53,010 nt of DNA. Source: Aurantimonas coralicida. Its GTDB lineage: Bacteria; Pseudomonadota; Alphaproteobacteria; Rhizobiales; Rhizobiaceae. Made by a program: the position numbers and the translations under genes. The notes under the pieces are model-generated. The model searched no databases. It was not told the DNA's origin and worked only from the letters and a program-made list of their open reading frames with translations. The stretch is taken from positions 1-53,010 of the forward strand of contig DRFF01000066.1 of NCBI GenBank assembly GCA_011050685.1, given 5' to 3'. Of this stretch, positions 11,976-31,045 are shown one piece after another; position 1 is the first letter of the stretch; every line of letters starts with the position of its first letter.

Positions 11976-12027
11976 CGCCTTGTCTCGAAAGGCACCTATG
12001 ATCAGTTCAATGGCAAAGCATCCGCCG

Positions 12028-12489: not shown

Positions 12490-12722
12490 TGTGGCTTCCA
12501 ATCGGAGATGTTTGTGCGGACCGAAGCCATGTAGGTGGATCGGCCAGCGGTTGATAGAGGACGCGGGATGATCGGCGAACCCGCGTATCTGATCGCGATC
12601 GCCGCGCGCGATCGGCAAAAGAAAATTCTGCCTCCGGATCATGTGACCGTCGGGACCTGCCGGCGCGCGCCGAAAGTGGCTATCGTCCAGCCCATCGTAA
12701 CAAACATCGGAGTCTCAGCGGC

Positions 12723-14015: not shown

Positions 14016-14053
14016 CCCGACGGCGGCAGCAGGTATCGGCGGCTTGGTCGGCC

Positions 14054-14470
14054 TCAGCCGCCCGGCGGCAGTCGGTCCCGTACATCGCCGCCGGCCTGCC
14101 GCCAGCGCACCTCGTCCTGATAGAGGGCTTGCCATTCGTTCGCTTCCGCTGCCGTGCGGCGCAGATCGATGCGTGCCTGACGCAGGCGCAGCCGCAGCAT
14201 CATCACCACGACAGAGACGAGGACGATCGCCAGGAAGAATCCGCCGATCAGGACCTCGCGCTTGAGCGGGTCCGCGACCGGCTCCGTAACAAGGATGGCG
14301 GCAACGGCGAGGAACGCCGCGGCGATGAAAACAAACAGGCTTCGCGACAGGAGCAGCGACAGGAGGGCGAGGATCAGACCCATGATCGCGATGGAGGGAT
14401 AGGCCGCGGCGGTCGCCTCAATATCGCGCCACCACGCCTCGGCCAGCGTCAGGATTTTCTCGGACGTCAT
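14054..14470 (-). CDS. Small membrane protein of unknown function
   Basis: A 138-residue protein starting MTSEKILTLAEAWW, with GGGGAGGA eight bases before the ATG at 14470. About three hydrophobic helices span residues 20-95 (IMGLILALLSLLL, FVFIAAAFLAVAAILV, VLIGGFFLAIVLVSVVV). They are followed by a charged, helical C-terminal tail rich in Arg and Glu. I do not recognise the family. It lies downstream of the NAGGN operon in the same direction with a 122-base gap, so read-through or a role in osmotic physiology is possible but unproven. Confidence 0.7.
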   Translation of the reverse strand: MTSEKILTLAEAWWRDIEATAAAYPSIAIMGLILALLSLLLSRSLFVFIAAAFLAVAAILVTEPVADPLKREVLIGGFFLAIVLVSVVVMMLRLRLRQARIDLRRTAAEANEWQALYQDEVRWRQAGGDVRDRLPPGG

Positions 14471-14592
14471 GCCTGTCCTCCCCTGTTGTCGACGGCGCGG
14501 TGCCACACCGGACCCCGGTATTCGATATTATCGCGGCCGGGCGATCTTATGAACCGCCGGAGCTTCGACTGATCGACGGGGACGGCAGGGCG

Positions 14593-15747
14593 TTACTCGG
14601 CGAGGTCGGAATCCTCGGCGAGCTCCTGCTCCGCCTCGACCGCCGGCTGCCGGGTGAATCCTTGAATACCCGCATGCTGGTTGCGATCCCGCTCGATCTC
14701 GACCGGCGAGGTGGCGTAGGCCGTGACGAGTTCGGCGAGCGAGCGCAGCGCATGCATGTGGATGCGTTCATAGCCATGCGAGGCGTCGACGCCGAAGGTG
14801 ATCAGCGCCGTGCGCACGTCGTGCCCTGCCTCGATCGCGGAGGCGGAATCGGAACGATAGAAGCGGAAGATATCCTTCTGGTAGCGGATATCCTCTTCCT
14901 GGCAGAGCCGGACGAGTTTCTTGGTCAGGTGATAGTCGAACGGGCCCGTCTGGTCGGCCATGGCGATGGTGACGCCGAATTCGGCGGAATTCTGGCCTGG
15001 CGCCGACGTGCCGTTGTCGACCGCGATCATTGAGGCGACGTCGGGTGTCAGGATCGAGGCGGCGCCGACGCCGACCTCCTCGGCGATGGTGAACAGCCAG
15101 TGCATGTCGACGGGTGTCACAGCCTCGGTGCGCTCCATCGCCTCGATCGCGGCAAGCATGACGGCGACGCCGGCCTTGTTGTCGAGATGGCGCGAGACGA
15201 TGAAGCCGTTGTCGAGAAACTCCGGCTGCGGGTCGATCGCAACGGTATCGCCGATCTCGATACCGAGCGCCTGCAGCTCGCGCGCGTCACGGCCGAGCGC
15301 GTCGACCCGCAACTCCACGAAATCCCAACCGACCGGCATGGTGTCGATTTCGTCGTTATAGGTATGGCCGGAGGCTTTCAGCGGCAGGATCGTGCCGCGA
15401 TAGGTGCCGGAATCGGTGAACAGCGTCGCGCGCGCGCCCTCGGCGAAACGTGCCGACCAGTGGCCGATCGGCACGAGTTCGAGGCGGCCGTTCTCCTTCA
15501 GGCGTTTGACCTGGGCACCCAGCGTATCGAGATGACTGACGATCGCCCGCGCCGAGGCCCGGCGTGAGCCTTGCCGGAGCGCCGAAATCGCGCCGCGCCG
15601 GGTCAGTTCGACGGTCAGCCCGAGTCGCTCCAGTTCCTTGGCGACATGGCGAACGACGGTATCCGTGTAGCCGGTGGGGCTGGGGATATCCAGAAGCGCC
15701 TTCAGCTGGTCCGTCAGATACTGCGCATCGATGGCAAGCCTTGGCAC
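14593..15747 (-). CDS. M42-family peptidase of the NAGGN osmoprotectant system
   Basis: A 384-residue metallopeptidase-like protein. Metal-ligand motifs are visible: SHLD (His72, Asp74), RHLDNKAG near residue 185, IAEEVG near 217 and a late HGYERIHMHA. This composition and length fit the M42-type peptidase that accompanies N-acetylglutaminylglutamine amide (NAGGN) synthesis genes. It is transcribed directly after ngg: its GTG start at 15747 follows the ngg TAG without a gap, so the two are translationally coupled. A role in turnover or maturation of the dipeptide osmolyte is plausible but not shown. The C-terminal tail, rich in Glu, is variable. Confidence 0.88.
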   Translation of the reverse strand: MPRLAIDAQYLTDQLKALLDIPSPTGYTDTVVRHVAKELERLGLTVELTRRGAISALRQGSRRASARAIVSHLDTLGAQVKRLKENGRLELVPIGHWSARFAEGARATLFTDSGTYRGTILPLKASGHTYNDEIDTMPVGWDFVELRVDALGRDARELQALGIEIGDTVAIDPQPEFLDNGFIVSRHLDNKAGVAVMLAAIEAMERTEAVTPVDMHWLFTIAEEVGVGAASILTPDVASMIAVDNGTSAPGQNSAEFGVTIAMADQTGPFDYHLTKKLVRLCQEEDIRYQKDIFRFYRSDSASAIEAGHDVRTALITFGVDASHGYERIHMHALRSLAELVTAYATSPVEIERDRNQHAGIQGFTRQPAVEAEQELAEDSDLAE

Positions 15748-17556
15748 CTAGTCGTCCTTCCTGGATTTACGTTTGTGAGACCTGGCGGCGCGCACTGAAA
15801 ACGGAATCGACAGGGGAAACAAGAGGTCGATGAAGCGCTCCGCCGTCGGTTGCGGCTCGTGATTGGCCAGCCCCGGCCGTTCGTTCGCCTCGATGAAGAC
15901 GTAGTCCGGCAAGTGCGGCGCCTTGACCATCAGGTCGATCCCCGTCACCGGGATTTCGATCGCCCGGGCAGCGGCGACGGCCGCATCGACGAGAACCGGA
16001 TGCACCTCGCCAGTCACGTCGTGAATCGTGCCCCCGGTGTGAAGATTCGCGGTCTTGCGAACGGTGATCCGCTCGCCCTTCACCGGAATGTCGTCCATGC
16101 CGTGGCCGGCATTCCTGACGCAGCGCTCGGTCTCCGCGTCGAGCGGCACTCGGCTTTCGCCGGCGGTGGCCGCCGCCCTGCGTCGGGACAGATGTTCGAT
16201 CAGTTCGCGGACGCTGGAGCGACCGTCGCCGGTGATCTGCGGCGGCTTGCGCAGGGCGGCGGCGACCAGGCGATAGTCGATGACGATCAGCCTGAGATCA
16301 TGGCCCTCGAAGCAGTATTCCAGCAGCACCCGGTCCGATTGCTCGCGCGCCGCGGCAATCGCGCGCTTGGCGTCCTCGACGGTTTCGATGCCGACGGCGA
16401 TGCCACGTCCCTGTTCGCCCCGCGCCGGCTTGACGACGATCTGGCCATGCTCGGCGATGAACGCGGCAAGGGCCTCGTCGTCGATATCGGCATCGATCTG
16501 ATCGGGGACCGCGACGCCGGCGGCCTCGACCATGCGGCGGGTCACCGACTTCTCGTCGCAGATCGACATCGCTACGGCTGAGGTCAGTTCCGACAGGCTT
16601 TCGCGGCAATGGATCGTGCGGCCGCCCTGAGTCAGACGAAAGAAGCCACCGGCCGCATCGGTCACCTCGGTATGGATGCCCCGCCGCCGCGCCTCGTCGA
16701 CGATGATACGCGCGTAAGGGTTGAGGCTGTCGTAATCGGCGCCCGAGCCGGTAAACAGCTTCTCGTTGATCTCGTTCTTGCGCTTCACGGCGAAATACGG
16801 GACCCGGTAGAAGCCGAGCTTGTCATAGAGCCCGATCGCCAGTTCGTTGTCGTGCATGACCGACAGATCCATGAAGGCGCAGCCACGCGCCTGGAAATGC
16901 TCGGCCAGCCGGCGCACAAGAGCCTCGCCGATGCCCGGATGCGTGGCCTGGGGGTCGACCGCAAGGCACCAGAGCGAGGAACCGTTCTCCGGATCGGCAA
17001 AGGCGCGGCGATTGTGGACGCCGGTGACCGTGCCAAGAATTGCGCCGGTGGTTTCGTCCTCGGCGACGAAATAGGTCAACGCCCGGTTGTCGCGGTTGGA
17101 CCAGAAGAAGGACGGATGCACCTGCACCATGCCGCGGCTCTGGTAGATGCGGTTGACCTCGGTCGCGTCCTGCTCGGAGGACAGGCGGCGGATGAAGTAG
17201 CCGCGCGGCCGGCGTGGATCGCTGCGATAGGTCGAAAGATCGAGGCGGTAGGTGTGCGAGGGGTCGAGGAACAGCTCCTGCGGCGCGTGGCTCAAAAGCA
17301 CATGCGGGTCGCGCGCGTAGAACGCGATATCGCGGCGATCTGGGCCTTCCTCGCGCAGGCTGCGCACGAGTTCCGTCGGGTCCTCGAAGGTCTGGGCGAA
17401 GACCAGCCGCCCCCATCCGCAATCGAGATAGGCGTTTTTCTCGGCCGCGGGCACATTCGGATCGTGCCGGCCGATCGGCGCCTTGATGCCGTCGGTGCGC
17501 ATCCGCTTCAGCCGGTGGTCGATATTGGGCTGGGTCCTGGGCCGGTGATCTGCCAT
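15748..17556 (-). CDS. ngg: N-acetylglutaminylglutamine synthetase (GNAT/ATP-grasp fusion)
   Basis: A 602-residue fusion. The N-terminal half (about residues 110-290) is a GNAT acetyltransferase with LWCLAVDPQATHPGIGEALVRRLAEHF and a YDKLGFYRVPYF end (read in parts). The C-terminal half (about 330-595) is an ATP-grasp ligase with IVVKPARGEQGRGIAVG, LLEYCFEGHDLRLIVID and FIEANERPGL. Ngg joins acetyl groups and glutamine units to make N-acetylglutaminylglutamine, the precursor of the osmolyte NAGGN, as known from Sinorhizobium and Pseudomonas. The start at 17556 follows the asnO stop by seven bases. It is the middle gene of a tight three-gene operon. Confidence 0.94.
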   Translation of the reverse strand: MADHRPRTQPNIDHRLKRMRTDGIKAPIGRHDPNVPAAEKNAYLDCGWGRLVFAQTFEDPTELVRSLREEGPDRRDIAFYARDPHVLLSHAPQELFLDPSHTYRLDLSTYRSDPRRPRGYFIRRLSSEQDATEVNRIYQSRGMVQVHPSFFWSNRDNRALTYFVAEDETTGAILGTVTGVHNRRAFADPENGSSLWCLAVDPQATHPGIGEALVRRLAEHFQARGCAFMDLSVMHDNELAIGLYDKLGFYRVPYFAVKRKNEINEKLFTGSGADYDSLNPYARIIVDEARRRGIHTEVTDAAGGFFRLTQGGRTIHCRESLSELTSAVAMSICDEKSVTRRMVEAAGVAVPDQIDADIDDEALAAFIAEHGQIVVKPARGEQGRGIAVGIETVEDAKRAIAAAREQSDRVLLEYCFEGHDLRLIVIDYRLVAAALRKPPQITGDGRSSVRELIEHLSRRRAAATAGESRVPLDAETERCVRNAGHGMDDIPVKGERITVRKTANLHTGGTIHDVTGEVHPVLVDAAVAAARAIEIPVTGIDLMVKAPHLPDYVFIEANERPGLANHEPQPTAERFIDLLFPLSIPFSVRAARSHKRKSRKDD

Positions 17557-17563
17557 AGCGGCG

Positions 17564-19339
17564 CTAGATCCCTTGCTGCTGGAGCCACAATTCGAGAAGC
17601 GCGACCTGCCAGAGTTCCGAGCCGCGCAGCGGCGTAATGTGGGCGGCCGGATCGGCGAACAGCGTTTCGAGATAGTCGCCGCGGAACAAGCCACGCGATT
17701 TGGCGCTTTCGGAGGTCAGCGTATCACGCACCATGTCGAGATAGGGGCCGGAGATGTATTTGAGCTGCGGAACCGGGAAATAACCCTTCTTGCGGTCGAT
17801 CACCGCCGACGGGACGATCTGACGCGCGACTTCCTTGAGGACACCCTTGCCGTCCTGCTTCAGCTTTTCGGCCGCCGGCACGCGCGCCGCGAGTTCCACC
17901 AGTTCGTGGTCGAGGAAGGGCACCCGCGCTTCCAATCCCCAGGCCATGGTCATGTTGTCGACCCGCTTGACCGGATCGTCGACCAGCATGACGTGGGCGT
18001 CGATCCTCAGCGCCTTGTCGACGGGGTTTTCCGCGCCCGGCATGGCGAAATGCCGTTCGACGAATTCGCGGCTGACGTCAGTTTCGGTGTGCCATTCCGG
18101 CGAAATGTGGCTCAGCAGCCGCTCATGCGAGCGGTCGAAGAAGGCATGGCTGTAGGCGGCGAGCGAATCATTGGCGCCGACCATCGGCGGATACCAGTGA
18201 TAGCCGCCGAAGATTTCGTCGGCACCCTGGCCGGACTGGACCACCTTGATGTGCTTGGAGACCTCGCGCGACAAGAGGTAGAAGCCGACATTGTCGTAGG
18301 AGACCATCGGTTCCGACATCGCCGCGATGGTGCCGGGCAGATGCTCCATCAGTTCCGAGCCGGGCACGAAGATCTTGTGGTGCTCGGTGCCGTAGTGATT
18401 GGCGATCAGGTCGGAGAATTCGAACTCGTTGCCGACCTCGCCATTGGCGTCCTCGAAACCGATCGAGAAGGTGTTGAGATCGTTCTGCCCGGCCTCTGCC
18501 AGAAGCCCGACGATCAGCGAGGAATCGACGCCGCCCGATAAAAGCACCCCGACCGGAACGTCGGCGACCATGCGGCGGGCGACAGCGGTCTTGAGCGATT
18601 CCAGCACCATGTCGCGCCAGTCGTCGGAGGACAACTTGTCGTCGCCGGGGCGCGGTCCGAATTCGGGCGCCCAGTACATATCGTCGTCGAAGCTGCCGTC
18701 CGCCTCGATCAGCCGGGTCGTCGCCGGGGGGAGCTTGCGAACGCCCTTGAGAATAGTCAGCGGCGGCGGCACCACGGCGTGGAACGTCATGTAGTGATGC
18801 AGCGCCTCGCGGTCGATCGCGGTATCGACGTCGCCGGTCTTCAGGATCGCCGGCAACGACGAGGCGAAATAGAGGCGCCCGGCGTTCTGCGACAGGTAGA
18901 GCGGCTTGATGCCGAAACGGTCGCGAGCAAGCAGCACCCGGCCAGAGTCGCGCTCGTGGATGGCGAAGGCGAACATGCCGTGGAAGCGCTTGACGCAATC
19001 GCGTCCCCAGGCGTGATAGGCCTTGAGGATGACCTCCGTGTCGCCATGCGAGAAGAAGCGATAGCCCTTGCCTTCGAGCTCCTTGCGCAGCTCCGGATAG
19101 TTATAGATGCAGCCGTTGAAGGCGATGGTGAGCCCGAGTTCGGGGTCGACCATCGGCTGCTCGGCCTTTTCGGAAAGGTCGATGATCTTCAGCCGCCGGT
19201 GGCCGAGGCCGACCCGGCCCCGCATCACCTGACCCGACCCGTCCGGCCCGCGCGGAGCCAGGCAGTCGCCCATGCGCTGAAGCCGCTCGGCCGAGGCCTT
19301 TTGCCCGTCGAACCGGATTTCACCGCAGATGCCGCACAT
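17564..19339 (-). CDS. asnO: N-acetylglutaminylglutamine amidotransferase (asparagine synthase family, AsnO)
   Basis: A 591-residue asparagine-synthase-like enzyme. Cys2 after the initiator Met (MCGICGEI) is the class II glutamine amidotransferase nucleophile. The synthase domain carries the PP-loop LLSGGVDSSLIVGLL near residue 265 and the QGADEIFGGYHWYP segment. Its place upstream of ngg and an M42 peptidase identifies it as the amidotransferase of NAGGN synthesis rather than a housekeeping AsnB. It amidates the dipeptide using glutamine and ATP. GGAGG precedes the ATG at 19339. The operon is expected to respond to osmotic stress (family knowledge); I found no convincing EcfG promoter upstream. 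Confidence 0.93.
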   Translation of the reverse strand: MCGICGEIRFDGQKASAERLQRMGDCLAPRGPDGSGQVMRGRVGLGHRRLKIIDLSEKAEQPMVDPELGLTIAFNGCIYNYPELRKELEGKGYRFFSHGDTEVILKAYHAWGRDCVKRFHGMFAFAIHERDSGRVLLARDRFGIKPLYLSQNAGRLYFASSLPAILKTGDVDTAIDREALHHYMTFHAVVPPPLTILKGVRKLPPATTRLIEADGSFDDDMYWAPEFGPRPGDDKLSSDDWRDMVLESLKTAVARRMVADVPVGVLLSGGVDSSLIVGLLAEAGQNDLNTFSIGFEDANGEVGNEFEFSDLIANHYGTEHHKIFVPGSELMEHLPGTIAAMSEPMVSYDNVGFYLLSREVSKHIKVVQSGQGADEIFGGYHWYPPMVGANDSLAAYSHAFFDRSHERLLSHISPEWHTETDVSREFVERHFAMPGAENPVDKALRIDAHVMLVDDPVKRVDNMTMAWGLEARVPFLDHELVELAARVPAAEKLKQDGKGVLKEVARQIVPSAVIDRKKGYFPVPQLKYISGPYLDMVRDTLTSESAKSRGLFRGDYLETLFADPAAHITPLRGSELWQVALLELWLQQQGI

Positions 19340-19568
19340 TTTGCCTCCGAACCGTCATGCCCTGCGCCGCGAGCCCGAAAACGGCCTTTGGCAAAATCTC
19401 CTGATCCGAGATCATATAGGCAGCGGCCCGCAACATGAACCGCAACGGCCGAATTTCTTCCGCGCCGCAAAAAGGCCCGCGAGAGAGAATGAGGGCTCCA
19501 CGGCCGGCCGGGGGATCGGCGAGCGGGATCATGCCGCTCAAAGGCACCAGATCAACGCGGCTTGGCCA

Positions 19569-20843
19569 TCATTCTATGCCAATGGTTTCGGCTATCGCGT
19601 CGCCGACCCTGCCATATGCTTCTTCGCTGTAATGGGCGCCGACCGGCGGGAAGTCGTCCAGGCCATTCCTGTCGATGAGTGGGCGTGCGTCGAGCAGCTT
19701 GTAGTCGCGGGTTCCGGACCGCTCTTTCGCGTAGGCGGTGACGAAGTCGAGATAGGTGTCCGTGCGCCAATCCGAGCGCCAGTATTCCGAACCCGGCAGC
19801 AGTGCGATCACCGGGACGCAGGTGCCGTCGCACTGCTCGAACAGGGCGTCGATGGCCGCGCGGGTGGCGTCGGGCGTGGTGAGCGGCTCTTCTGTCTCGG
19901 ACTGCCCGATTGTCGCACGCATGCCGCGGAGCGCCCTCAGCTTGACGAGGCCGGCGATTTTCTCGCGACTGTCGATCTGCTGGACGTACTGGCTGAAGGC
20001 GCTTCCGAGTGTCGCGTTTTCCTGGGCCGAGAAATCCGCCTTCACCTGCTCCTGGATGTCCGGAAAGGTCAGGTCGACGCGGTCGCAGTCGAGCTTCGGG
20101 TTGAGGCCCGATGTCGGCTCCATCAGCGGTCGGATCGCGCGATAGAAGTCGCGCCCCTGCTGGTCGATTCCCGAACGGCTGTAATGGACTGCCGGCGCAC
20201 GATCACGCTGGCTGTAAGGGTCGTTGGCGGGAATGCGGACGTTGTCATTGGGAAAGAACACGAGCACCACGTAGGACGGCTCGACCAGCGGGACGAAGGT
20301 CTCGAGCAGCGCCCGGTAGTGATTGGGACCGTTGCTGGCCGTGCCGACATTCAGGACGTTTTCGCCGAGTCTCTCGGCGACCCGGTTCGACAGGACATAG
20401 GGTTCGCTGACGCAGGCCCCCTGGACGAAGGAATCGCCGACGAACAGGACGTCGACGGGCCGGTCCCAGTTTTCATCGTCATTGCGAAAGCCGAAGCGGT
20501 CGCTGGTGTATTGCACGAAGCCATAGCCCTCGTTGCAATAGGCCGTGGCCGTGCGCGGAATCGGGCCGAGCGGCAAAAAGCCGGTGCTCTCCGAGACCGA
20601 CCGGTATCGCTCCTGCTGCAGAAGGTCGGGATAAAAGACCTGCACATGATCCTGCGACAGGCATTGGCGGAAATAGGCGGAGTCGACCGCGCGTGCCTTC
20701 GCCTCCAGGCGCCGACGTTCCTGTTCCGGTTGCGCCCGGCGGAAATTGTCGAAGTCGAGATAGAGATTGGCAAGAAATAGGCTGCCGGCGAGCAGCACGC
20801 TATTGACGAACAGGATGGCGGCCCAGCGCTTAGTCGAGCTCAT
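19569..20843 (-). CDS. Membrane-anchored SGNH/GDSL-like hydrolase of the carbamoyltransferase cassette
   Basis: A 424-residue protein starting MSSTKRWAAILFVNSVLLAG, so one N-terminal membrane anchor with the bulk likely periplasmic. SGNH-type blocks are visible: VLFVGDSFVQGA (Asp137-Ser138), NVGTASNGPNHY (Gly and Asn of block II), FFPNDNVR near 197-203 and a late GAHYS (His404). Such enzymes hydrolyse or transfer acyl groups on carbohydrates, lipids or peptides; no substrate can be named. It is the last gene of the cassette, and its start overlaps the carbamoyltransferase stop by 14 bases, which argues for coupled expression. Related proteins are known to me only as uncharacterised neighbours of carbamoyltransferases. 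Confidence 0.8.
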   Translation of the reverse strand: MSSTKRWAAILFVNSVLLAGSLFLANLYLDFDNFRRAQPEQERRRLEAKARAVDSAYFRQCLSQDHVQVFYPDLLQQERYRSVSESTGFLPLGPIPRTATAYCNEGYGFVQYTSDRFGFRNDDENWDRPVDVLFVGDSFVQGACVSEPYVLSNRVAERLGENVLNVGTASNGPNHYRALLETFVPLVEPSYVVLVFFPNDNVRIPANDPYSQRDRAPAVHYSRSGIDQQGRDFYRAIRPLMEPTSGLNPKLDCDRVDLTFPDIQEQVKADFSAQENATLGSAFSQYVQQIDSREKIAGLVKLRALRGMRATIGQSETEEPLTTPDATRAAIDALFEQCDGTCVPVIALLPGSEYWRSDWRTDTYLDFVTAYAKERSGTRDYKLLDARPLIDRNGLDDFPPVGAHYSEEAYGRVGDAIAETIGIE

Positions 20844-22673
20844 AGGCCTCCCGATAGGAAGCGTTCCCGGCCACGGTCTGCTCTTCCTTGAACAACAGGC
20901 AATTGCCGATCGCCAGGACATCCAGACCGGTTCCCATGAAACACCGGAAGGCATCCTGCGGGGTATTGACGATCGGCTCGCCGCGGACATTGAACGAGGT
21001 GTTGACCAGGACCGGGCAGCCAGTCTGTGCGTTGAACGCGCTCAGCAAGGCGTGAAAGCGCGGATTCGTGTCGGCGCTGACGGTCTGGATGCGGGCCGAA
21101 TAGTCGACATGGGTGACGGCCGGAATCTCCGAGCGGGCGACATTCAGCTTGTCGATCCCGAACAGGCTGTTTTCGCTTTCCGACATCGCCCGCCGCCGCG
21201 ATGTGCGGACATCGGCCACCAACAGCATGTAGGGGCTGTCGCTTTCGATCTCGAACCATTCGCCGACATGTTCGCGCAGGACAGCCGGCGCGAACGGCCG
21301 GAAGCTCTCGCGAAACTTGACCTTCAGATTGAGCGTCTTCTGCATCTGCTCCGAGCGGGGGTCGGCCAGGATCGAGCGTCCGCCAAGGGCCCGCGGGCCG
21401 AATTCCATCCGCCCCTGGAACCAGCCGACCGCCTTGCCGCTGGCGAGTTCGGTTGCCACGGAGGTCGCCAAGGCATCCGATTCCGTGACCGCATAGACGG
21501 CGCCGCATGCGTCGAGAGCGGCTTCGATCGCTTCTTGCGAAAACTCCGGGCCGACATAAGCGCCGCGCATGGCGTCCGGCGTCTCCGGCTGCCGCGGCTG
21601 GCCCAGTTCGCAGTGCCAGGCGGCGAGGGCGGCCCCGACGGAGCCACCGGCGTCGCCGGCCGCCGGCTGAATCCAGATGTCGTCGAACCGGCCGTCGCGC
21701 AGGATCTTGCCATTCGCGACGCAGTTCAACGCGACCCCGCCGGCCAGGCAGAGATTGCGGATGTTGAATTCCTCCGCCAGGGAGCGGGTCATGCGCAGGA
21801 CGATCTCTTCGGTCACCGCCTGGAGCGATGCCGCGATGTCCATATGAAATTGCGTGAGACGATCGGTTTCGGGATTGCGCCTCGGCTGACCGAACAATGC
21901 CGCGAAGGCCGGGCCGGGCCGGTCATGGTCAGGCCGGTCGCGTAGGTGAAATAGCTCTGGTCGAGACGGAACGAGCCGTCCGGCTTCACGTCGACCAGCT
22001 TTTCCAGGATGAGGTCGGCGAAACGCGGTTCGCCATAGGGCGCCAGGCCCATGACCTTGTACTCGCCGCTGTTGACCTTGAAGCCGAGATAATAGGTGAA
22101 GGCGGAATAGAGCAGGCCGAGCGAATGGGGGAAATGCAGCTCCCGGATCGTTTCCAGCTTGTTACCGCGGCCGATCGAGACGCTGGTCGTTGCCCATTCG
22201 CCGACACCGTCCATGGTCAGCACCAGCGCTTCGTCGAACGGCGAGGGGAAGAAGGCGCTCGCCGCGTGGCCCTGATGATGTTCCGCGAACAGGAGCTTCT
22301 TGCGGCATGATTTGTCGGCGCCGGCGTCCTGCAACTCGTCGCCGATCATCGATTTCATGAACAGCTTCTCGCGAAGCCAGATCGGGATCGCCCGGCGAAA
22401 CGATCCGAATCCTTGCGGCGCATAGGTCAGATAGGTCTCGATCAGCCGTTCGAACTTGAGGAAGGGCTTATCGTGAAACGCGAAATGATCGACGTCGTCG
22501 ATCGATATCCCGGCCTCGGCCAGGACGTAGTCCAGGGCCCGTCGCGGAAAGCGCGGATCGTGCTTCTTGCGCGAGAAACGCTCTTCCTGGGCCGCGGCCA
22601 CCAGCCGCCCGTCCACGACGATCGCGGCGGCGCTGTCGTGGAAATAGGCCGACAGCCCTACGATGACCGTCAT
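20830..22673 (-). pseudogene. NodU/CmcH-family carbamoyltransferase split by a +5 frameshift
   Basis: Two overlapping frames encode complementary halves of one carbamoyltransferase. The N-terminal half (from ATG 22673) has GLSAYFHDSAAAIV, EERFSRKKHDPRFP and the metal-site HHQGHAASAFFPSPFDEA. The C-terminal half (from about 21897) has GGVALNCVANGKI, FGPRALGGRSIL and LVNTSFNVRGEPIV. The break lies in a tandem GGCCG triplet on the plus strand (21907-21921). Removing one five-base unit restores a continuous 612-residue protein reading TGPAFAALFGQP across the join. As it stands, the first half ends with an aberrant tail at 21813. The family transfers a carbamoyl group from carbamoyl phosphate to a hydroxyl of sugars or natural products. 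It could be an inactive allele, a phase-variable gene or a sequencing error. Confidence 0.85.
21907..21921. repeat. Three-copy pentanucleotide repeat at the carbamoyltransferase frameshift
   Basis: GGCCG occurs three times in a row (CGGCC on the coding strand). With two copies the carbamoyltransferase reads through in frame; with the three seen it shifts by five bases. Short tandem repeats of this kind are prone to slippage in replication and to errors in assembly. Confidence 0.9.
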
Positions 22674-22674
22674 C

Positions 22675-22824
22675 TTAGAACAGCGTGTAGATAAAGGGGG
22701 CAACAGCCGAGCCTTGCGTGATGACCAACAGGCCACCAAACAAGAAGAGCGTGATGAAGGCCGGAAAGAGCCAGTATTTCTTGCGCTTTCCCATGAAATG
22801 AAAAAATTCGACGATGAACGACAT
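22675..22824 (-). CDS. DUF5989-like 49-residue membrane protein of the carbamoyltransferase cassette
   Basis: A 49-codon gene: MSFIVEFFHFMGKRKKYWLF, then one hydrophobic helix (FITLFLFGGLLVI), then TQGSAVAPFIYTLF and stop. The layout of an aromatic N-terminus, a KRKKYW basic patch, one helix and a GSAVAPFIYTLF end matches the tiny DUF5989 proteins found next to NodU-type carbamoyltransferases and SxtJ-like proteins (from memory). It sits exactly between the two: nine bases after the SxtJ-like stop and one base before the carbamoyltransferase ATG. That spacing and the conserved tail support a real gene despite its size. The role is unknown; a single-pass membrane partner of the carbamoyltransferase is a reasonable guess. 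Confidence 0.85.
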   Translation of the reverse strand: MSFIVEFFHFMGKRKKYWLFPAFITLFLFGGLLVITQGSAVAPFIYTLF

Positions 22825-22833
22825 GGCTTTTCC

Positions 22834-23238
22834 TCAGAACTGGCGATCCATGGCGCCGGGTTGTTCGTCGCGTTCGATCCAGTAACTCGTCGCCGACTTG
22901 TCGAAACGCCGGTTCATCTTGTCGATCCCGGCCGCGCGCAGAAACAGTCCGGTGGGTAGCACCACGACCGCATAGAGTAGCGTCATCACCACCGGTGACA
23001 CGATATGGCCGAGCAATATGCCGAGGCGCGACCAATACCGGTTGGGCAGGGCGAAAATGGCGGGCCGAGCGAAGGCGAGGATGAAAAAACCGGCGGACAG
23101 GAACGCTGCCCACAGCCGAATGGAACCGCCGGACAGGAGCGGCCAGAGGCTGACGAGCAACAGGACGGCGCCGAAGGTGAGCGCGAAGCTCCGCTCCGAC
23201 GATACCTTGGCGTCCGCATAGCTTTGATTATCGAACAA
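22834..23238 (-). CDS. SxtJ-family small membrane protein
   Basis: About 134 residues with an N-terminal RSFALTFGAVLLLVSLWPLLSGG helix, a second helix pair (LWAAFLSAGFFILAFARPAIFALP) and a LGHIVSPVVMTLLYAVVVLPTGLFLR helix pair. The C-terminal KSATSYWIERD segment is typical of the SxtJ family, named from the saxitoxin cluster but widespread beside carbamoyltransferases (each stretch is contained within residues 10-130). Function is unknown. No ATG fits: the frame opens with TTG codons at 23304 and 23238. I chose 23238, which has GGAAAG a few bases upstream, but the start is uncertain. It is the first gene of the cassette and lies downstream of kdgK in the same direction. Confidence 0.78.
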   Translation of the reverse strand: MFDNQSYADAKVSSERSFALTFGAVLLLVSLWPLLSGGSIRLWAAFLSAGFFILAFARPAIFALPNRYWSRLGILLGHIVSPVVMTLLYAVVVLPTGLFLRAAGIDKMNRRFDKSATSYWIERDEQPGAMDRQF

Positions 23239-23354
23239 GACTGTCTTTCCGCTCAGGCCGTGACTGTCATCCGGTCTGTAGCGAACCGGGCGTCGGCAAG
23301 TCAATCTTCAGGATCCTCGCCGGTCGCCTTCCGCCGGAGTTCGGATTGCCGACC

Positions 23355-24260
23355 CTATCGCATCAAGGCGCCGTAATGCTGGACGACCTGCGCGGCCAGC
23401 GCATGACCCTTGCGCGCGGCCTCCACCGGCGGCAGGCCACCGAGGCGGGCGGCGAGATAGGCGGCGCTGAAGCTGTCGCCGGCGCCGGTCGTATCGAGCG
23501 GCTGCGTGACGGTCTCGGCGGCGACCTGTTGACGCGTATCGGCATCAGCGACGAGGGCCGGCTCAGGTCCGTCCTTGACCACCACTTCGCCGGCACCGAG
23601 GCCGAGATAACGCTCCGCCGTCTCGGCCGGCGAGGCATCGCCGAACGCGGCTTCCTCGTCGGGAAAGCTCGGCAGGCAGATCGTCGAGACACCGGCCGCC
23701 GCTTCGATCGCCCGGCGCAGCTCGGCGGGATCGGGCCAGAGGCGTGGGCGGATATTGGGGTCGAAGGCGACGGCTTTCCCGGCGGCCTTCGCCGCGCCGA
23801 GCTTTTCGAGCAGCGCGTTTCGATCCGTGGCCGGCAGGATCGCCAGGGTGATGCCGGAAAAATAGAAGGCGTCGCCGTCCGCGAACGCCGCTTCGAGGTG
23901 GCCGGGATCGGCGGCGAGTTGCTTCGCCGCGCTGGTGTCGCGCCAATAGGAGAAGCTGCGCTCGGCGCCGTCGAGATGGATCATGTAGAGCCCCGGCATG
24001 GCCCCATCGATGCGCCGCACGAGGTCCGTCTCGATATCGGCCTCGGCGAAAAATGCGAGCATCTCGTCGGATGTCGTGTCGGTGCCGAGCGCGGTCAGAT
24101 AGGCGACCCGCCAGTCCGCGCCGAGTTCACGGCGAAGATACCAGGCGGTGTTGAAGGTGTCGCCGGCAAAGCCCTTGCGGTAGAGACCCTCTCCGGCCGC
24201 GGCGAGCTCGATCATGCATTCGCCGATGGCGGCGATACGGCGGGTCGATGTGGCGGTCAC
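23355..24260 (-). CDS. kdgK: PfkB-family sugar kinase, probable 2-keto-3-deoxygluconate kinase
   Basis: A 301-residue ribokinase-fold protein beginning with a GTG that overlaps the uxuA stop (GTGA). Family marks are IGECMIEL at the N-terminus, GGxGDTFNTAxYLxR-like FAGDTFNTAWYLRR near 31-44, VAFDPNIRPRLW near 163-174 and the catalytic DTTGAGDSFSAAYLA near 260-274. The GECMIEL and DTFNTA features are typical of KdgK, which phosphorylates 2-keto-3-deoxygluconate. Being coupled to mannonate dehydratase supports that role in hexuronate breakdown, since UxuA makes KDG. The KDPG aldolase and upstream hexuronate isomerase genes are not in the window. Confidence 0.88.
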   Translation of the reverse strand: MTATSTRRIAAIGECMIELAAAGEGLYRKGFAGDTFNTAWYLRRELGADWRVAYLTALGTDTTSDEMLAFFAEADIETDLVRRIDGAMPGLYMIHLDGAERSFSYWRDTSAAKQLAADPGHLEAAFADGDAFYFSGITLAILPATDRNALLEKLGAAKAAGKAVAFDPNIRPRLWPDPAELRRAIEAAAGVSTICLPSFPDEEAAFGDASPAETAERYLGLGAGEVVVKDGPEPALVADADTRQQVAAETVTQPLDTTGAGDSFSAAYLAARLGGLPPVEAARKGHALAAQVVQHYGALMR

Positions 24261-25453
24261 GACGCGCTTCCTTCCAGGGCTTCGATGGCGGCCATGACGC
24301 CGCGCAGTTCAGCGAGACCCCGCATCCGCCCGATCACCGGATATCCGGGATGCGTGCCCCGGCCGATGTCGGAGAGAAGCTCGTGGCCGTGGTCGGGCCG
24401 CATCGGGATTTGCCAGTCGGCGCGGCCCTCGGCCCGGCGGCGGCGTTCCTCGCCCATCAGCACGCGCACCAGCGCCACCATGTCGGTGTCGCCGGCCAGA
24501 TGATCCGCCTCCTCGAAGGAGCCGTCGGCATCCTTGGCGACGTTGCGCAGATGCGCGAAATGGATCTTGTCGGCGAACCGCCTGGCGATACCCGGCACGT
24601 CGTTGGCGGGGTTGGCGCCCAGCGAACCCGAGCAGAGCGTCAGCCCGTTGGCGGGCGAGGGCACGGCGTCGAGCACGAAGGCGATGTCCTCGGCATTGGA
24701 GACGATGCGCGGCAGGCCGAAGAGTGGTCGCGGCGGATCGTCGGGATGGACGCAAAGCCGGATGCCGGCCGCCTCTGCCGTGGGGATGACGGCTTCGAGG
24801 AAGCGTTTGAAGTTGGCGCGGACGTCGTCGCGGGTCACGCCGTCGTAGCGCTTCAGGATCTCCCGGAGCCCCGGAACGTCGTAGCGCGCATAGGCACCCG
24901 GCAGGCCGGCCATGATCGCGGCGAGAAGCCGGTCGCGATCGGCTGAATCCGAGGCATCGAACCACGCCTTGGCACGGGCCAGAACGTCCGGCGAGGCCTC
25001 CTCCGCCGCGCCGGGCCGCTCCAGCATGAACACGTCGAAGGCGGCGTATTCGTGCAGGTTGAAGCGCAGGCTCGTACCGCCACCGGCCAGTGGCGCGGCC
25101 AGTTCGGTGCGGGTCCAGTCGAGCAGCGGCATGAAATTGTAGCAGACCGTTTCGATGCCGCGGGCGGCGAGATTGCGCAGCGACTGCCGGTAGGTCTCGA
25201 ACAGCGGCTCCAGATCGCCGTCGCCGAGCTTGATTCGCTCGTGCACCGGCAGGCTTTCGACGACGCGCCAGGTCAGGCCCAGCGACGTATCCGCTTCGAT
25301 CAGGGCCTGGCGGGCCGCGATCGCCTCCACGGTCCAGACCTCGCCATAGGGGATCTCGTGCAGGGCATTGACGATGCCGCGGGCCCCGGTCTGGCGGATT
25401 TCGGCCAGAGCGATCTTGTCGGCCGGCCCGAACCAGCGCCACATCTCCTGCAT
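24257..25453 (-). CDS. uxuA: Mannonate dehydratase
   Basis: A 398-residue TIM-barrel enzyme. N-terminal MWRWFGPADKIAL, the YNFMPLLDWTRTEL segment near 105-118, LCVHPDDPPRPLFGLPRIVS and the C-terminal RPDHGHELL stretch are standard UxuA motifs (His, Asp and Cys metal ligands). It dehydrates D-mannonate to 2-keto-3-deoxygluconate in the cytoplasm. AGGGGG precedes the ATG at 25453. It is co-transcribed with kdgK, whose start overlaps its stop by four bases. It is divergent from the FNR-type regulator at 25571, which need not regulate it. Confidence 0.95.
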   Translation of the reverse strand: MQEMWRWFGPADKIALAEIRQTGARGIVNALHEIPYGEVWTVEAIAARQALIEADTSLGLTWRVVESLPVHERIKLGDGDLEPLFETYRQSLRNLAARGIETVCYNFMPLLDWTRTELAAPLAGGGTSLRFNLHEYAAFDVFMLERPGAAEEASPDVLARAKAWFDASDSADRDRLLAAIMAGLPGAYARYDVPGLREILKRYDGVTRDDVRANFKRFLEAVIPTAEAAGIRLCVHPDDPPRPLFGLPRIVSNAEDIAFVLDAVPSPANGLTLCSGSLGANPANDVPGIARRFADKIHFAHLRNVAKDADGSFEEADHLAGDTDMVALVRVLMGEERRRRAEGRADWQIPMRPDHGHELLSDIGRGTHPGYPVIGRMRGLAELRGVMAAIEALEGSAS

Positions 25454-25570
25454 ATGTCCCCCTGTTGGCCGTTGGAATCAGGTGTCAGCCCGCTTGCCCG
25501 TCCGTTCGATAGCAAACAGGGTTTGAACCGCAAGCCTATCTTCTTTAACACTGCCGCTGGGAGGAATGGC

Positions 25571-26335
25571 GTGGATGATCAAATGATGGCCCAAACTTCC
25601 CCGGTCGAGCGGCTGGATATTCACAACTCGGAACTCCCAGTCCTATGCCGCGCCTGCGAAGCACGGCATCGGGGCGTCTGCGGCGCGCTGTCACCGGATC
25701 AGTTGATCACGCTCAGCAAGCACACGTCCCGGCATGCCTATGGCAGCGATGAGGAACTGGTGCCTGCCGGCGAAGGCGTGCGCCGCTATTCCAACATTCT
25801 GAGCGGCGTCGTGAAGCTAACGCGGTTGATGGCCGACGGGCGCCAGCAGATCGTCGGCCTGCAATTCGCGCCGGACTTTCTCGGTCGCCCCTTCAAGAGC
25901 CAGACGGTGGCCTCGGCCGAAGCGGCGACAGGAGTCACTGTCTGCTCCTTTCCCAAGAGTATCATCGAAGAGATGGTCGCGACGACGCCGGAGCTGGAGC
26001 ACAGACTGCACGAGCAGTCCTTGAAGGAGCTCGACGAGGCGCGCGAGTGGATTCTCACGCTCGGCCGCAAGTCGGCGGCGGAGAAGGTGGCGAGTTTTCT
26101 GTTCCTGATCGCCTCCCATATCGATCCCGAGCAGTTGGCCGCTGACGGTCCGATCCGCTTCGAATTGCCGCTCAAGCGTGCCGACATCGCCGATTTTCTC
26201 GGTCTCACCATCGAGACCGTCAGCCGCCAGATCACCAAACTGCGAAAGACCGGCACGATCGTCGTCGAGCACAACAGAACCGTCACCGTGCCCGACCTGC
26301 GCCTGCTGCAGGATTGCTGCGAAGTCGACCGCTGA
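25571..26335 (+). CDS. fnrN: FNR-type [4Fe-4S] oxygen-sensing transcriptional regulator (FnrN/FnrL)
   Basis: A 254-residue Crp/Fnr protein. Three N-terminal cysteines at 26, 29 and 37 (CRACEARHRGVC) and Cys125 (VTVCSF) form the set expected to hold an oxygen-labile [4Fe-4S] cluster. The cyclic-nucleotide-type beta barrel follows and then a helix-turn-helix with ADFLGLTIETVSRQITKL. The E-V-S-R recognition motif is the kind that reads TTGAT/ATCAA half-sites. The GTG start at 25571 is preferred because GGGAGG ends six bases upstream; an ATG four codons later is possible. It is the likely regulator of the two FNR boxes at 28316 and 32697 that control hemN, cbb3 oxidase and its assembly genes. Confidence 0.92.
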   Translation: MDDQMMAQTSPVERLDIHNSELPVLCRACEARHRGVCGALSPDQLITLSKHTSRHAYGSDEELVPAGEGVRRYSNILSGVVKLTRLMADGRQQIVGLQFAPDFLGRPFKSQTVASAEAATGVTVCSFPKSIIEEMVATTPELEHRLHEQSLKELDEAREWILTLGRKSAAEKVASFLFLIASHIDPEQLAADGPIRFELPLKRADIADFLGLTIETVSRQITKLRKTGTIVVEHNRTVTVPDLRLLQDCCEVDR

Positions 26336-26367
26336 GCCGGGCGTCTCGGCCGGCGAGGTCGCCCGCT

Positions 26368-27726
26368 TCACACCGCCTTGGAATACCGGAATGCCGACGT
26401 CTTCAGATGCGCGTCGAACCGGGCCGCGACGATGCGCGTGAACGGCCGGGCGTCGTCCGGGATCACGAAGCGGTCGGCCTCGACGCGGCAAAGCCCGTCG
26501 GCATCGCTCGTGGCGATCATGCGGGCTTCCGCGATATAGGGCGCGGCGGCTGCGCCGAATCGGGCTTCCAGATCGGCAAAGCAGACGGCGAAGTCGCACA
26601 TCAGCCGTTCGATCCAATAGGCGCGAACGCGGTCGTCATCGCTCAGCCGGTAGCCGCGCCCCACGGGGAGACGGTCGGCGTCGACGGCAGCGCGATAGGA
26701 TGCGGTCGGAACGATGTTCTGTACGTAGCCGTCGCGAAACCGTCCGATCGAAGAGGCGCCGAGCCCGATCATCGTTGCGCAGGCGTCCGTCGTATAGCCC
26801 TGAAAATTGCGGTGCAGCGTGCCTGTGCGCGCCGCTTCGGCGAGCGTGTCGTGCGGCAGCGCGAAGTGATCGATGCCGATCGCCGCGTAGCCGGCCGCAA
26901 CCAGCGCCGCCTCGGCGAGGCGCGCCTGTCGGAAGCGCTCCGTCTGATCCGGCAAATCCTCGTCCCGGATCATCGTTTGATGCTTCTTCAGCCACGGCAT
27001 GTGGGCATAACCGAACAGCGCGATGCGGTCCGGCGCGAGATCGACGACCTTCTCCAGCGTTGCGGCAAGCCGCTGTTCCGTCTGCAACGGCAGGCCGTAG
27101 AGGGCGTCGATATTCAGGGAGCCGATGCCGATCGCGCGCAGGCTTGCGATGACCTCTCGGGTCAATTCGAAGCTCTGGGGCCGGTTGATGGCGGCCTGCA
27201 CGGCGGGATCGAAATCCTGAACGCCGATGCTCGCCCGCGTCATGCCCAGCGCCGTGAGGCCGTCGAGTGTGTCGTCGGTGACGTCGGACGGGTCGATCTC
27301 GACGCTGATTTCGCTCGCCGCGTCGATCGTGAAGGCCTCATGAAGAGCGTCGGACAGGCGTTGAAAGTCGCCGGAGCGCATCAGGCTAGGGGAGCCGCCG
27401 CCGAAGTGGAGTTGCGCCACCGGTGCCGGAAAGCCGATCGCCCGCGAGACCAGCGCGACCTCGCGCAACAAGGAGGCGACGTAGTCCGCGACCGGGCCAT
27501 ACTGCCTGGTATGTTTGGTGTGGCAGCCGCAGAACCAGCACAGCCGGTCGCAATAGGGAACGTGGATATACAGTGAGACGCGCTCGCTTTGACCGATCGC
27601 GCCCAGCATCTCGGGCAGCAGCGTCGGGCCGAGATCGGTCTCGAAATGCGGCGCCGTCGGATAGCTCGTATAGCGGGGAACCGGCTCGCTGTAACGGGCC
27701 AGGATCAATGCTGGATCACGCGCCAC
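26368..27726 (-). CDS. hemN: Oxygen-independent coproporphyrinogen III dehydrogenase (radical SAM)
   Basis: A 452-residue radical SAM enzyme with the cluster motif CDRLCWFCGC (CX3CX2C plus a following Cys) near residue 60, HFGGGSPSLM near 107-116 and the EIDPSDV and LNIDALYGLP segments. It converts coproporphyrinogen III to protoporphyrinogen IX without oxygen, supplying haem for cbb3 oxidase under microaerobic conditions. It starts with GTG at 27726 inside the last codons of the hemerythrin gene (11-base overlap), so the two form an operon read from the FNR box at 28316. The convergent neighbour is fnrN, 32 bases away. Confidence 0.95.
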   Translation of the reverse strand: MARDPALILARYSEPVPRYTSYPTAPHFETDLGPTLLPEMLGAIGQSERVSLYIHVPYCDRLCWFCGCHTKHTRQYGPVADYVASLLREVALVSRAIGFPAPVAQLHFGGGSPSLMRSGDFQRLSDALHEAFTIDAASEISVEIDPSDVTDDTLDGLTALGMTRASIGVQDFDPAVQAAINRPQSFELTREVIASLRAIGIGSLNIDALYGLPLQTEQRLAATLEKVVDLAPDRIALFGYAHMPWLKKHQTMIRDEDLPDQTERFRQARLAEAALVAAGYAAIGIDHFALPHDTLAEAARTGTLHRNFQGYTTDACATMIGLGASSIGRFRDGYVQNIVPTASYRAAVDADRLPVGRGYRLSDDDRVRAYWIERLMCDFAVCFADLEARFGAAAAPYIAEARMIATSDADGLCRVEADRFVIPDDARPFTRIVAARFDAHLKTSAFRYSKAV

Positions 27727-28252
27727 GGCTCACCTCGATCTGTTTCAGCAGCGGGACGATCTGGGCCTTCTCGAAAGCGATATGGCGTCTCATGCCGCCG
27801 AAGAAGCCGCGCAGCATGTAGCCGAGGGCCTCGGGATTGCGCGGTTCGAGACCGCTGACGAAGCCGATGAGCGCTTCCGCCAGCTCTTCGGCGAACATGT
27901 CGTCCTCCCAGTGCTCGAAATGGAGGCTCTCCAGCGCTTCCTTGATGTCCGCGTCCTGGGCGAAGCGTAATTTCAGGAGCGGAAACAGTACGGATTCCTC
28001 GAAATCGTGAGCACTCATGACGGTCGCGCAAAGGCTGCGCGCGACATGCAGCGCATCCTGGCGATCGACATGGTCGGGCAGATGGTCGGCGATGTCTTCC
28101 AAGCGGTGGCACAGGTCCGACAATACTCGGAAATGACCGTTGAGCCGGCTGACGAGGCTCTCGCCGCCCTGCGAAAAAACGCCGGCACCGATCGACCGCA
28201 AGGGGGCGGCTCCACGCCCAATCGCGCGTCTTCGTTGTGCCCTGGATCGCAT
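27716..28252 (-). CDS. Hemerythrin HHE-domain protein
   Basis: A 178-residue four-helix protein with metal-ligand motifs in order: LNGHFRVLSDLCHRL, SAHDFEESVLFPLL, LHFEHWEDDMFAEEL and MRRHIAFEKAQIVPLL. These His and Glu positions fit a di-iron hemerythrin-like site able to bind O2 or NO. The ATG at 28252 is chosen because GGAG lies seven bases upstream; the ATG at 28291 has no such site and would add 13 residues. It overlaps hemN by 11 bases and is divergent from ccoN across an FNR box, so it is likely induced at low oxygen. Oxygen sensing, delivery or protection are all possible. Confidence 0.87.
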   Translation of the reverse strand: MRSRAQRRRAIGRGAAPLRSIGAGVFSQGGESLVSRLNGHFRVLSDLCHRLEDIADHLPDHVDRQDALHVARSLCATVMSAHDFEESVLFPLLKLRFAQDADIKEALESLHFEHWEDDMFAEELAEALIGFVSGLEPRNPEALGYMLRGFFGGMRRHIAFEKAQIVPLLKQIEVSRGA

Positions 28253-28315
28253 TTCTAGACTCCGGCGGCGGTCATCGGCTGGACCATTCATAGACGTCGG
28301 CAGGCACTAACCTCC

Positions 28316-28329
28316 TTGATCCAAGTCAA
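28316..28329. promoter_or_regulatory. FNR/FixK box between hemerythrin-hemN and ccoNOQP
   Basis: TTGATCCAAGTCAA is an almost perfect match to the FNR/FixK consensus (TTGAT-4-RTCAA). If centred at -41.5 it gives leaders of about 63 bases for ccoN and about 29 bases for the hemerythrin gene, so one box can serve both directions. Confidence 0.88.
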
Positions 28330-28426
28330 AGCAAAGGTTTTTGGACGCTGGCAAAGAGCAAGCGGACGTCGCGGCGTCATCAAGGCTGGCACGTCGCGCC
28401 GCGAGGGATTTTGGAGAACATTGATC

Positions 28427-30067: not shown

Positions 30068-30072
30068 AGGGG

Positions 30073-30876
30073 ATGAGTATGAGCAAGAAAGACGACGACT
30101 CCGCGCTGAAGGGTGCTCTCCCGGAGGTCAAGGCCGATCCCATAGCCCGCGGCCTCTTGTCCCGGCACGGCGTGATCGAGCGCAACGCCACGCTGCTGCT
30201 CGTCCTGTCGCTGCTGGTGGTCAGCGTCGGCGGCATCGTCGAGATAGCGCCGCTGTTCTATCTCGAGAACACGATCGAGAAGGTGGAGGGCGTGCGGCCC
30301 TACTCCCCGCTCGAACTGGCTGGCCGCAATATCTACATCCGCGAGGGCTGCTACGCCTGTCACAGCCAGATGATCCGGCCGTTCCGCGACGAAGTGGAAC
30401 GCTATGGCCCTTACAGTCTGGCGGCGGAGTCGATGTACGATCATCCATTCCAGTGGGGCTCGAAACGTACGGGACCGGATCTGGCCCGCGTCGGCGGCCG
30501 CTATTCGGACGAATGGCAGGTCCAGCACCTGACCGATCCGCGTTCGGTCGTGCCGGAATCGGTCATGCCGACCTATGCCTTCCTGCGGAAGGAGCTGGTC
30601 GTGGAGGATCCGGCCGGGCATCTCGTTGCCAACCGCCGCGTCGGCGTGCCCTACACCGATGCGATGATCGAGAACGCCGCGACCGACCTGCGCGCCCAGG
30701 CGGACCCGGAGGCCGACACGTCGGCGCTTCTCGATCGCTACCCCAAGGCCGTCGTCAGCGATTTCGACGGCGATCGGCAAAAGCTCACCGAAATGGATGC
30801 GCTCGTCGCCTACCTGCAAATGCTCGGAACGCTGGTCGACTTTTCGGCCTACGAGCCTGAACTCAACGACCGGTAA
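30073..30876 (+). CDS. ccoO: cbb3-type cytochrome c oxidase subunit II (monohaem cytochrome c)
   Basis: A 267-residue membrane-anchored cytochrome c. One N-terminal helix (about residues 38-60) precedes the haem site CYACH at 93-97. The axial methionine is probably in the [11 protein letters not shown] segment, and [15 protein letters not shown] is the family signature. It passes electrons from CcoP to CcoN on the periplasmic side. The open frame contains two adjacent start codons (30073 and 30079); the first is used. It is the second gene of ccoNOQP. Confidence 0.96.
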
Positions 30877-31042: not shown

Positions 31043-31045
31043 TCG

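Follow-up and report, generated by a model that had tools for sequence, protein, structure and literature searches.

Genes of the kind described here are known from the saxitoxin cluster, which carries the carbamoyltransferase (CT) gene sxtI (1839 bp) together with sxtJ (405 bp), sxtK (165 bp) and sxtL (1281 bp) (PMC2679770), the last having been annotated as a GDSL-lipase (PMC2684587). It has been proposed that SxtI acts with SxtJ and SxtK, both described as uncharacterised in 2010, that decarbamoylation may be the task of SxtL, and that an alphaproteobacterium is the most likely origin of sxtI (PMC2679770, PMC2885083). Genes resembling sxtJ, sxtK and sxtL are also grouped together in the suomilide cluster, and the suomilide sugar carries carbamic acid and short acyl esters (PMC10157211); a related suomilide cluster encodes a CT (ORF17), assigned to the Abn moiety, and an MBOAT protein (PMC8609519). 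Here, we analyzed a four-gene set of this kind in Aurantimonas coralicida, within a stretch of 53,010 nucleotides (contig DRFF01000066.1 of assembly GCA_011050685.1, positions 1 to 53,010), hereafter referred to as the window. We consider it an evenly balanced proposition that this cassette, probably an acquisition, represents a membrane-docked O-carbamoylation module of the sxtI-J-K(-L) kind, the acceptor of which would be a surface glycan or glycolipid.

The cassette consists of four minus-strand genes at 19569-23238, in the order SxtJ-DUF5989-CT-SGNH. The first encodes an SxtJ-family small membrane protein (22834..23238; 134 aa, TTG start; PF19588, 33.3 bits vs. a cut-off of 24.4) and the second an SxtK-like DUF5989 small membrane protein (22675..22824; 49 aa; PF19451, 81.8 bits vs. 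a cut-off of 27). These are followed by the CT gene, which spans 20830-22673 (1844 bp from start to stop across a frame break), and by a gene for an SGNH/GDSL protein with one N-terminal membrane segment (19569..20843). Gaps of 9 bases (SxtJ/DUF5989) and 1 base (DUF5989/CT) and a 14-base overlap between the CT end and the SGNH start bear out the tight, same-direction packing described in an earlier sequence-only reading of this DNA; likewise, the membrane segments predicted in SxtJ, DUF5989 and the SGNH protein agree with its two small membrane proteins and anchored hydrolase. In kinds and sizes, the set matches sxtI-J-K-L, with 1844 bp for the CT, 405 bp for SxtJ, 150 bp for DUF5989 and 1275 bp for the SGNH gene, the likeness of DUF5989 to SxtK and of the SGNH protein to SxtL resting on size, order and family name. 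The order CT-SxtJ-DUF5989, as in sxtI-J-K, was found in other loci, while that of the window differs. Because the saxitoxin and suomilide clusters hold like genes, as far as the consulted parts of those reports describe them, the set has precedents as a unit, and the sequence-only reading was mistaken in stating that no function had been assigned to it as such, given the published role proposals for sxtI-J-K-L (PMC2679770, PMC2885083).

The evidence for a conserved unit comes from co-occurrence and linkage. In a survey of 398 genomes of the phylum, in which matches over the family cut-off were counted, DUF5989 was present in 56 genomes, the CT C domain in 135 and SxtJ in 44. All 56 genomes with DUF5989 also had a CT, compared to 135/398 overall (Fisher p ~4e-31); similarly, a CT was present in 44/44 SxtJ genomes (p ~9e-24) and DUF5989 in 43 of these. 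Furthermore, we examined 151 loci, 71 of which were the window plus 70 from the genomes, the remaining 80 being the best contigs from a GTDB contig scan with a DUF5989 alignment (at least 539 relatives), chosen for their DUF5989 irrespective of CT and SxtJ. SxtJ and CT lay within 2.7 kb of DUF5989 and on the same strand in 132/151 loci, window included, which is in line with the conserved neighbourhood that the earlier reading had expected. In particular, both partners were near DUF5989 in 55 of the 71 loci (CT only in 8, SxtJ only in 2, neither in 6, several of these misses sitting at contig ends) and in 77 of the 80 contigs, the other three having the CT only. The 80 contigs were mostly from Alphaproteobacteria, 33 of them from Pelagibacteraceae, and also included Nitrospira, Desulfobulbaceae, Geobacter, Acidimicrobiia and others. 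Two gene orders, SxtJ-DUF5989-CT and CT-SxtJ-DUF5989, occurred with the same partners, and CT and SxtJ were fused in one open frame in two loci of the same genus (L081 and L083); the Pfam SxtJ model matched the fused frame of genome G171 with 27.9 bits, and L081 was not reported at E 0.01. Two small membrane families described as uncharacterised are thereby tied to one kind of CT across several phyla. Matches under cut-off were excluded (L024 of G016, and the DUF5989 matches of G058:C7, G157 and G182), and L063 and L149, as well as L040 and L145, are probable duplicates across the sets. A search for DUF5989 in phages gave no match. In four genomes of one family (f63; G089, G120, G085 and G112), the SxtJ match was on another contig than DUF5989 and the CT.

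By its domains and conserved residues, the CT of the window would be a class III O-carbamoyltransferase of the TobZ/NodU/SxtI superfamily, though it lies in two frames. Carbam_trans_N scored 237 bits, over cut-off, with profile positions 2-247 of 346 in the N-terminal piece (21930-22673), and Carbam_trans_C 255 bits, over cut-off, at 20833-21897, with the C-terminal piece also holding the end of Carbam_trans_N. The C-terminal frame (20830..21897, minus strand, 355 aa) carries a segment of about 20 residues found in CTs linked to SxtJ and DUF5989. The distance between the SPYML and THVD motifs was 39-41 residues in 138/138 linked CTs long enough to measure (a C part of at least 300 residues was required), and 21 residues in 15 of 22 other CTs, a proportion that is no random rate, since six long unlinked CTs were chosen on purpose; one further CT of the 22 is a degenerate fusion. 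NovN, the structure of which has been solved, lacks the segment in the alignment inspected. When the segment columns were included in a CT tree, insertion-bearing and short CTs separated with a support of 93, against 18 in the second tree described below; we claim no separate clade for the former.

As regards the two small proteins, the AlphaFold2 (AF2) model of SxtJ had a mean predicted local distance difference test score (pLDDT) of 88, with helices at residues 15-36, 42-57 and 59-102 and a tail of lower confidence, and hydropathy predicted three membrane segments. The C-terminal tail is conserved, yet of lower confidence in the model, which suggests that it may bind a partner. A fold search with the SxtJ model returned 28 matches, the best at E 1.5 and none meaningful. 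DUF5989 had one predicted membrane segment in 147 of 152 proteins, with the N side more positive in 150/152, and its C-terminal end, opposite the positive side, is strongly conserved. The window copy keeps all 12 columns that are conserved at >=95% in the family.

The SGNH gene is an optional yet strongly enriched neighbour of the cassette, and the four-member cassette of the sequence-only reading therefore stands for the linked SxtJ, DUF5989 and CT genes and not for the SGNH gene as a fixed member, since it was directly adjacent in 52/151 loci. Using a hidden Markov model (HMM) iterated over all open reading frames (ORFs) of the loci, SGNH proteins were found in 55/282 slots next to the cassette, 15/269 two away and 6/834 three to six away, and among 14 control loci with short-type CTs there was an SGNH match in one only, 1.4 kb off. 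A membrane segment preceded the active site in 64 of the 68 SGNH proteins within 1.5 kb of the cassette, the N flank being more positive in 45 of these 64, which favours an outside domain. In the window, GDSL_2 gave 20.9 bits, under the cut-off of 32.9, and a search against PDB sequences gave one match (E 0.29), which is not meaningful. The assignment nevertheless holds because the predicted structure matches SGNH/GDSL esterases: solved GDSL esterases were best (E 8e-5, probability 1.00), and all 15 PDB chains with E up to 0.001 were GDSL or related esterases and thioesterases, with the acetylxylan esterase Axe2 among the closest. The AF2 model had a mean pLDDT of 67 and a long extra region, with residues 243-321 largely below pLDDT 50. 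Ser138 of the GDS motif and His404 are kept, in support of the SGNH-like identity proposed earlier, and the usual Asp just before the His is absent; Ser and His were present in 39/39 aligned proteins and an Asp at H-2 or H-3 in 28/39.

Some loci showed other arrangements of SGNH genes. L165 (7142-10393) encodes a 1083-aa fusion of an SGNH protein with a degenerate CT, opposite an intact CT and SxtJ. In L017 (9117-13932), a DUF5989 gene that lacks a neighbouring CT or SxtJ precedes three SGNH-type ORFs found with the iterated HMM, on two of which Pfam GDSL matched, one under cut-off. In L129, L132 and L134 (Ruegeria, Leisingera and Rhodobacteraceae), the cassette is followed by an SGNH gene and then by an ORF matching the HMM of the CT C part.

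Class III CTs use ATP and carbamoyl phosphate to produce carbamoyl-AMP, the carbamoyl group of which is passed on (PMC9633730). In the function that we propose, the CT would be a cytosolic enzyme of this class, making carbamoyl-AMP from the same substrates, and SxtJ and DUF5989 would form its docking site at the inner membrane, perhaps contacted via the segment of about 20 residues. Linkage, fusions and membrane segments together place CTs of this kind at the inner membrane, so that the acceptor is likely membrane-borne, and the hydroxyl group carbamoylated by the enzyme would most likely belong to a glycolipid or to a lipid-linked sugar unit destined for a surface polysaccharide. The SGNH protein, with its catalytic domain predicted outside the inner membrane, might then edit the exported product; its modelled fold is most simply read as that of an esterase, which would take off a carbamoyl or acyl group, and this is the least certain step of the scheme. 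Since the CT bears a sequence mark and natural fusions exist, the docking model is testable.

Several observations weigh against this proposal. The counterparts with known products, saxitoxin and suomilide, make small molecules according to the reports cited above, and the CT of the window is broken as assembled. A CT tree built without the segment columns, and from a different draw of rows, separated the two CT types with a support of only 18. The SGNH proteins were 10-23% identical to that of the window in alignments and may represent several separate recruitments. In SxtJ, the window copy deviates at one of three columns conserved at 95%, and the CT-SxtJ fusions need a cytosolic SxtJ N end, with which three segments place the tail, its most positive part, outside. 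Lastly, we compared the families of the ORFs closest to the cassette, taken from loci other than those of Pelagibacteraceae, with the families of ORFs five positions off (92 of 210 and 91 of 105 candidates drawn, which became 91 and 89 after removal of one and two ORFs of the window itself), leaving out SGNH proteins, ORFs below about 150 aa and those above 900 aa, with longest-ORF calls that are noisy. Glycosyltransferase families were each below 2/91 among the nearest non-SGNH neighbours, and Glycos_transf_2 occurred in 3/89 distant ORFs, more than beside the cassette, a tally that speaks against a simple polysaccharide reading. A methyltransferase family was present in 9/91 nearest and in fewer than 2/89 distant ORFs, which also fits small-molecule tailoring. 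MBOAT proteins were found in 2/91 near neighbours of other loci.

The rhizobial copies bear on the acceptor. DUF5989 matched 45 plasmid records, 38 of them from Sinorhizobium or Ensifer, and all four families were present in 5/5 plasmid stretches examined. In Ensifer canadensis, the order is GDSL-SxtJ-DUF5989-CT, inside a polysaccharide cluster with genes for an O-antigen ligase, exopolysaccharide transport, a flippase, an export protein and glycosyltransferases. On the Rhodobacteraceae plasmid L215, the order is that of the window, with an SGNH protein 28% identical over 427 positions. The surface-glycan setting suggested by the sequence-only reading thus finds a match in Ensifer canadensis and none in the general glycosyltransferase tally; this context favours a surface polysaccharide, while methyltransferase neighbours and the cyanobacterial clusters leave room for small molecules.

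A complete set was also found on pSymB of S. meliloti, at about 482-486 kb. A transposon sequencing (TnSeq) study reported SM_b20472, named arcB2 and given as an ornithine carbamoyltransferase, as essential for symbiosis (PMC7268258). The ornithine-carbamoyltransferase domain models PF00185 and PF02729 gave 0 matches on pSymB (controls 14/14), and the replicon has one NodU-type CT, at 484583. If there is one gene per unlisted gap, counting down from ngg, the locus tag of which we take to be SMb20482, reaches this CT. Because pSymB showed no ornithine-carbamoyltransferase domain and one NodU-type CT, and the count from ngg agrees, SM_b20472 is most likely the CT of the pSymB cassette. Its published assignment to the arginine pathway is thereby called into question. 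We advance only tentatively, as more probably wrong than right, the wider idea that SxtJ and DUF5989 would form a dedicated membrane platform for the segment-marked CT, that the rhizobial module would decorate a surface polysaccharide needed in the nodule, and that SM_b20472 would be its CT. The complete S. meliloti copy offers a route to the acceptor in a workable laboratory organism.

With regard to its genomic setting, the window is contig 66 of a draft genome (202 contigs, 98.8% complete), and the cassette is flanked by kdgK and uxuA upstream and by genes for the osmolyte N-acetylglutaminylglutamine amide (NAGGN) downstream. No MBOAT gene was found beside the SGNH gene of the window, the next genes being the NAGGN amidotransferase and kdgK. 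The NAGGN genes (14593-19339) adjoin the cassette, and on pSymB the cassette has the NAGGN M42 peptidase gene on one side and the amidotransferase-synthetase pair on the other (L214, 10029-11048 and 26394-30086). A role in NAGGN osmolyte metabolism was considered and set aside, as searches of other loci with the synthetase and the M42 peptidase gave nothing at E < 1e-30, and the proximity was judged a regional coincidence.

Same-genus genomes gave no DUF5989 match (0/7); among 60 relatives, 10 had one, which exceeded the cut-off in 9. By blastn, a cassette-sized block with little else inside (19491..23347) is missing at the homologous place in congener G002, where 12005-19490 and 23348-23729 of the window match stretches of L205 that lie 11 bases apart; only the 3' part of kdgK is at that site (L205:9368-9750), a full kdgK-uxuA pair being elsewhere. 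In congener G005, a larger block made up of the cassette plus kdgK and uxuA (19486..25487) is missing, with 12023-19485 and 25488-33044 matching stretches of L206 that are 58 bases apart. Given that a block of about 3.9 kb is missing at the homologous place in a congener, the cassette was probably acquired, gain by transfer being the simplest reading and not proof. In the first CT tree, the window CT fell among those of Roseobacteraceae, Stappia, Minwuia and Pelagibacteraceae (starred set, 15 rows), apart from L015 and L051, the two other CTs of its family in the tree; in the second tree, made without the segment columns, there was no starred set for it.

What is probably an acquired copy of a widespread set has its main enzyme frameshifted as assembled. 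No single continuous reading frame covers the CT: its N and C parts are in different frames, with the switch at about 21.90-21.93 kb. The N-terminal frame (21813..22673, minus strand) is homologous at 21930-22673, beyond which it continues in the wrong frame as far as a stop at 21813, and in the three-frame reading of 21880-21960 both ORFs overlap in the frame-change zone (21897..21935), which lies in a GC-only run. The earlier identification of a NodU-type CT is thus upheld by both Carbam_trans domains, the break having been overlooked. Unless it is a sequencing error, the split implies that the module is off in this genome. The most serious rival to the proposed function is that in this genome the cassette is left over from a transfer, decaying and functionless, which we regard as somewhat less likely than not. 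It would account for a CT in two frames in a genome where the Carbam_trans_C profile found one match, the window's own, and no second CT, and for the blocks that two congeners lack at the corresponding site. However, the two CT pieces together retain 210 of the 213 columns with >=95% conservation in linked CTs, the 3 departures all being mild, and DUF5989 departs at 0/12, so that little besides the frame change points to decay. Moreover, an assembly or sequencing error is plausible, given the GC-only run in a draft of 202 contigs, and the present data would fit a fresh frameshift equally. Intact CT copies are present in relatives. Split CTs were also seen in L105, L139 and L164 among the 80 contigs, with break points different from that of the window; those of L094 and L163 are cut by contig ends and were not counted as splits.

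A second alternative is that the substrate is not a structural surface glycan but a diffusible natural product or a metabolite bearing a sugar, tailored by the CT, SxtJ and DUF5989 and trimmed or acylated by the SGNH protein. The saxitoxin and suomilide settings favour it, the suomilide sugar itself bearing the groups in question according to the report cited above, as do the methyltransferases among the nearest neighbours. Nevertheless, we consider it unlikely: the 33 Pelagibacteraceae contigs come from improbable hosts for such a pathway, as these bacteria have streamlined genomes; no nonribosomal peptide synthetase (NRPS) or polyketide synthase (PKS) family was among the neighbour families listed (25 of 111 and 25 of 102); and in Ensifer canadensis the set lies within a polysaccharide cluster. 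No remaining sxt biosynthesis gene was found among the 20 window proteins scanned, a search that covered the window only.

The proposed docking of the CT on SxtJ and DUF5989 has also to be weighed against a relay, in which these two proteins would move a carbamoyl group, or a carrier loaded with it, through the inner membrane for the SGNH protein to transfer to a periplasmic glycan, by analogy with alginate O-acetylation, which is thought to use a membrane acyltransferase and an SGNH protein. The adjacency and predicted outside location of the SGNH protein would suit this idea, as would the strongly conserved C-terminal end of DUF5989, away from the positive side, the three SGNH-type ORFs of L017 next to a DUF5989 gene lacking CT and SxtJ, and the presence of DltD, a membrane-linked SGNH transferase, among the structure matches (rank 25, E 1.5e-3). 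We judge it improbable, because 99/151 loci have no directly adjacent SGNH gene, hydrolases were the best structure matches, and AlgX, AlgJ and PatB, expected under a relay, were not among the best 50 of 731. In addition, the L165 fusion has no membrane segment before or between its domains by hydropathy, which puts its SGNH and CT domains on the same side, and we know of no carbamoyl relay across membranes. That the genes are unrelated neighbours by chance, for which the low similarity among SGNH proteins and nothing more speaks, is almost certainly wrong and is refuted for SxtJ, DUF5989 and the CT by co-occurrence and linkage, with two gene orders sharing the same partners and CT-SxtJ fusions pointing the same way.

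Compared with characterised CTs, the enzyme of the membrane-docked module proposed here has the same two domains as TobZ, GdmN and NovN, and TobZ and GdmN match over similar spans; the parts consulted of a report on CTs of that type mention no SxtJ or DUF5989 partners beside them (PMC9633730). NodU and NolO belong to the same superfamily, and the NCBIfam NodU model NF041651, run on the C piece alone, gave 151.9 bits, far below the cut-off of 1000. WapO, a CT of the Pseudomonas lipopolysaccharide (LPS) core, has been proposed to act on a surface glycan (PMC8005017), and its likeness to the window CT is by that description; a short CT of family f65, inferred to be Pseudomonadaceae, has the 21-residue segment (L184) and its genome, G117, no DUF5989 match, while the CT of a second f65 genome (L167 in G188) is long and unlinked. 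EstL5, Axe2, TesA and DltD share the fold of the SGNH protein, with identities of only 8-15% among the best 50 matches, and differ in that the window protein has its long extra low-confidence region. The suomilide and banyaside clusters differ from the window in being NRPS pathways of cyanobacteria, and in contrast to the saxitoxin cluster, the window cassette is flanked by sugar-acid and osmolyte genes. A literature search for "DUF5989" gave no match, and the parts of the SxtJ literature consulted place the set in toxin and peptide clusters and do not describe its general spread as a module. While its enzyme is broken in this genome, the cassette is real and conserved, known in kind from these clusters and wide in reach.

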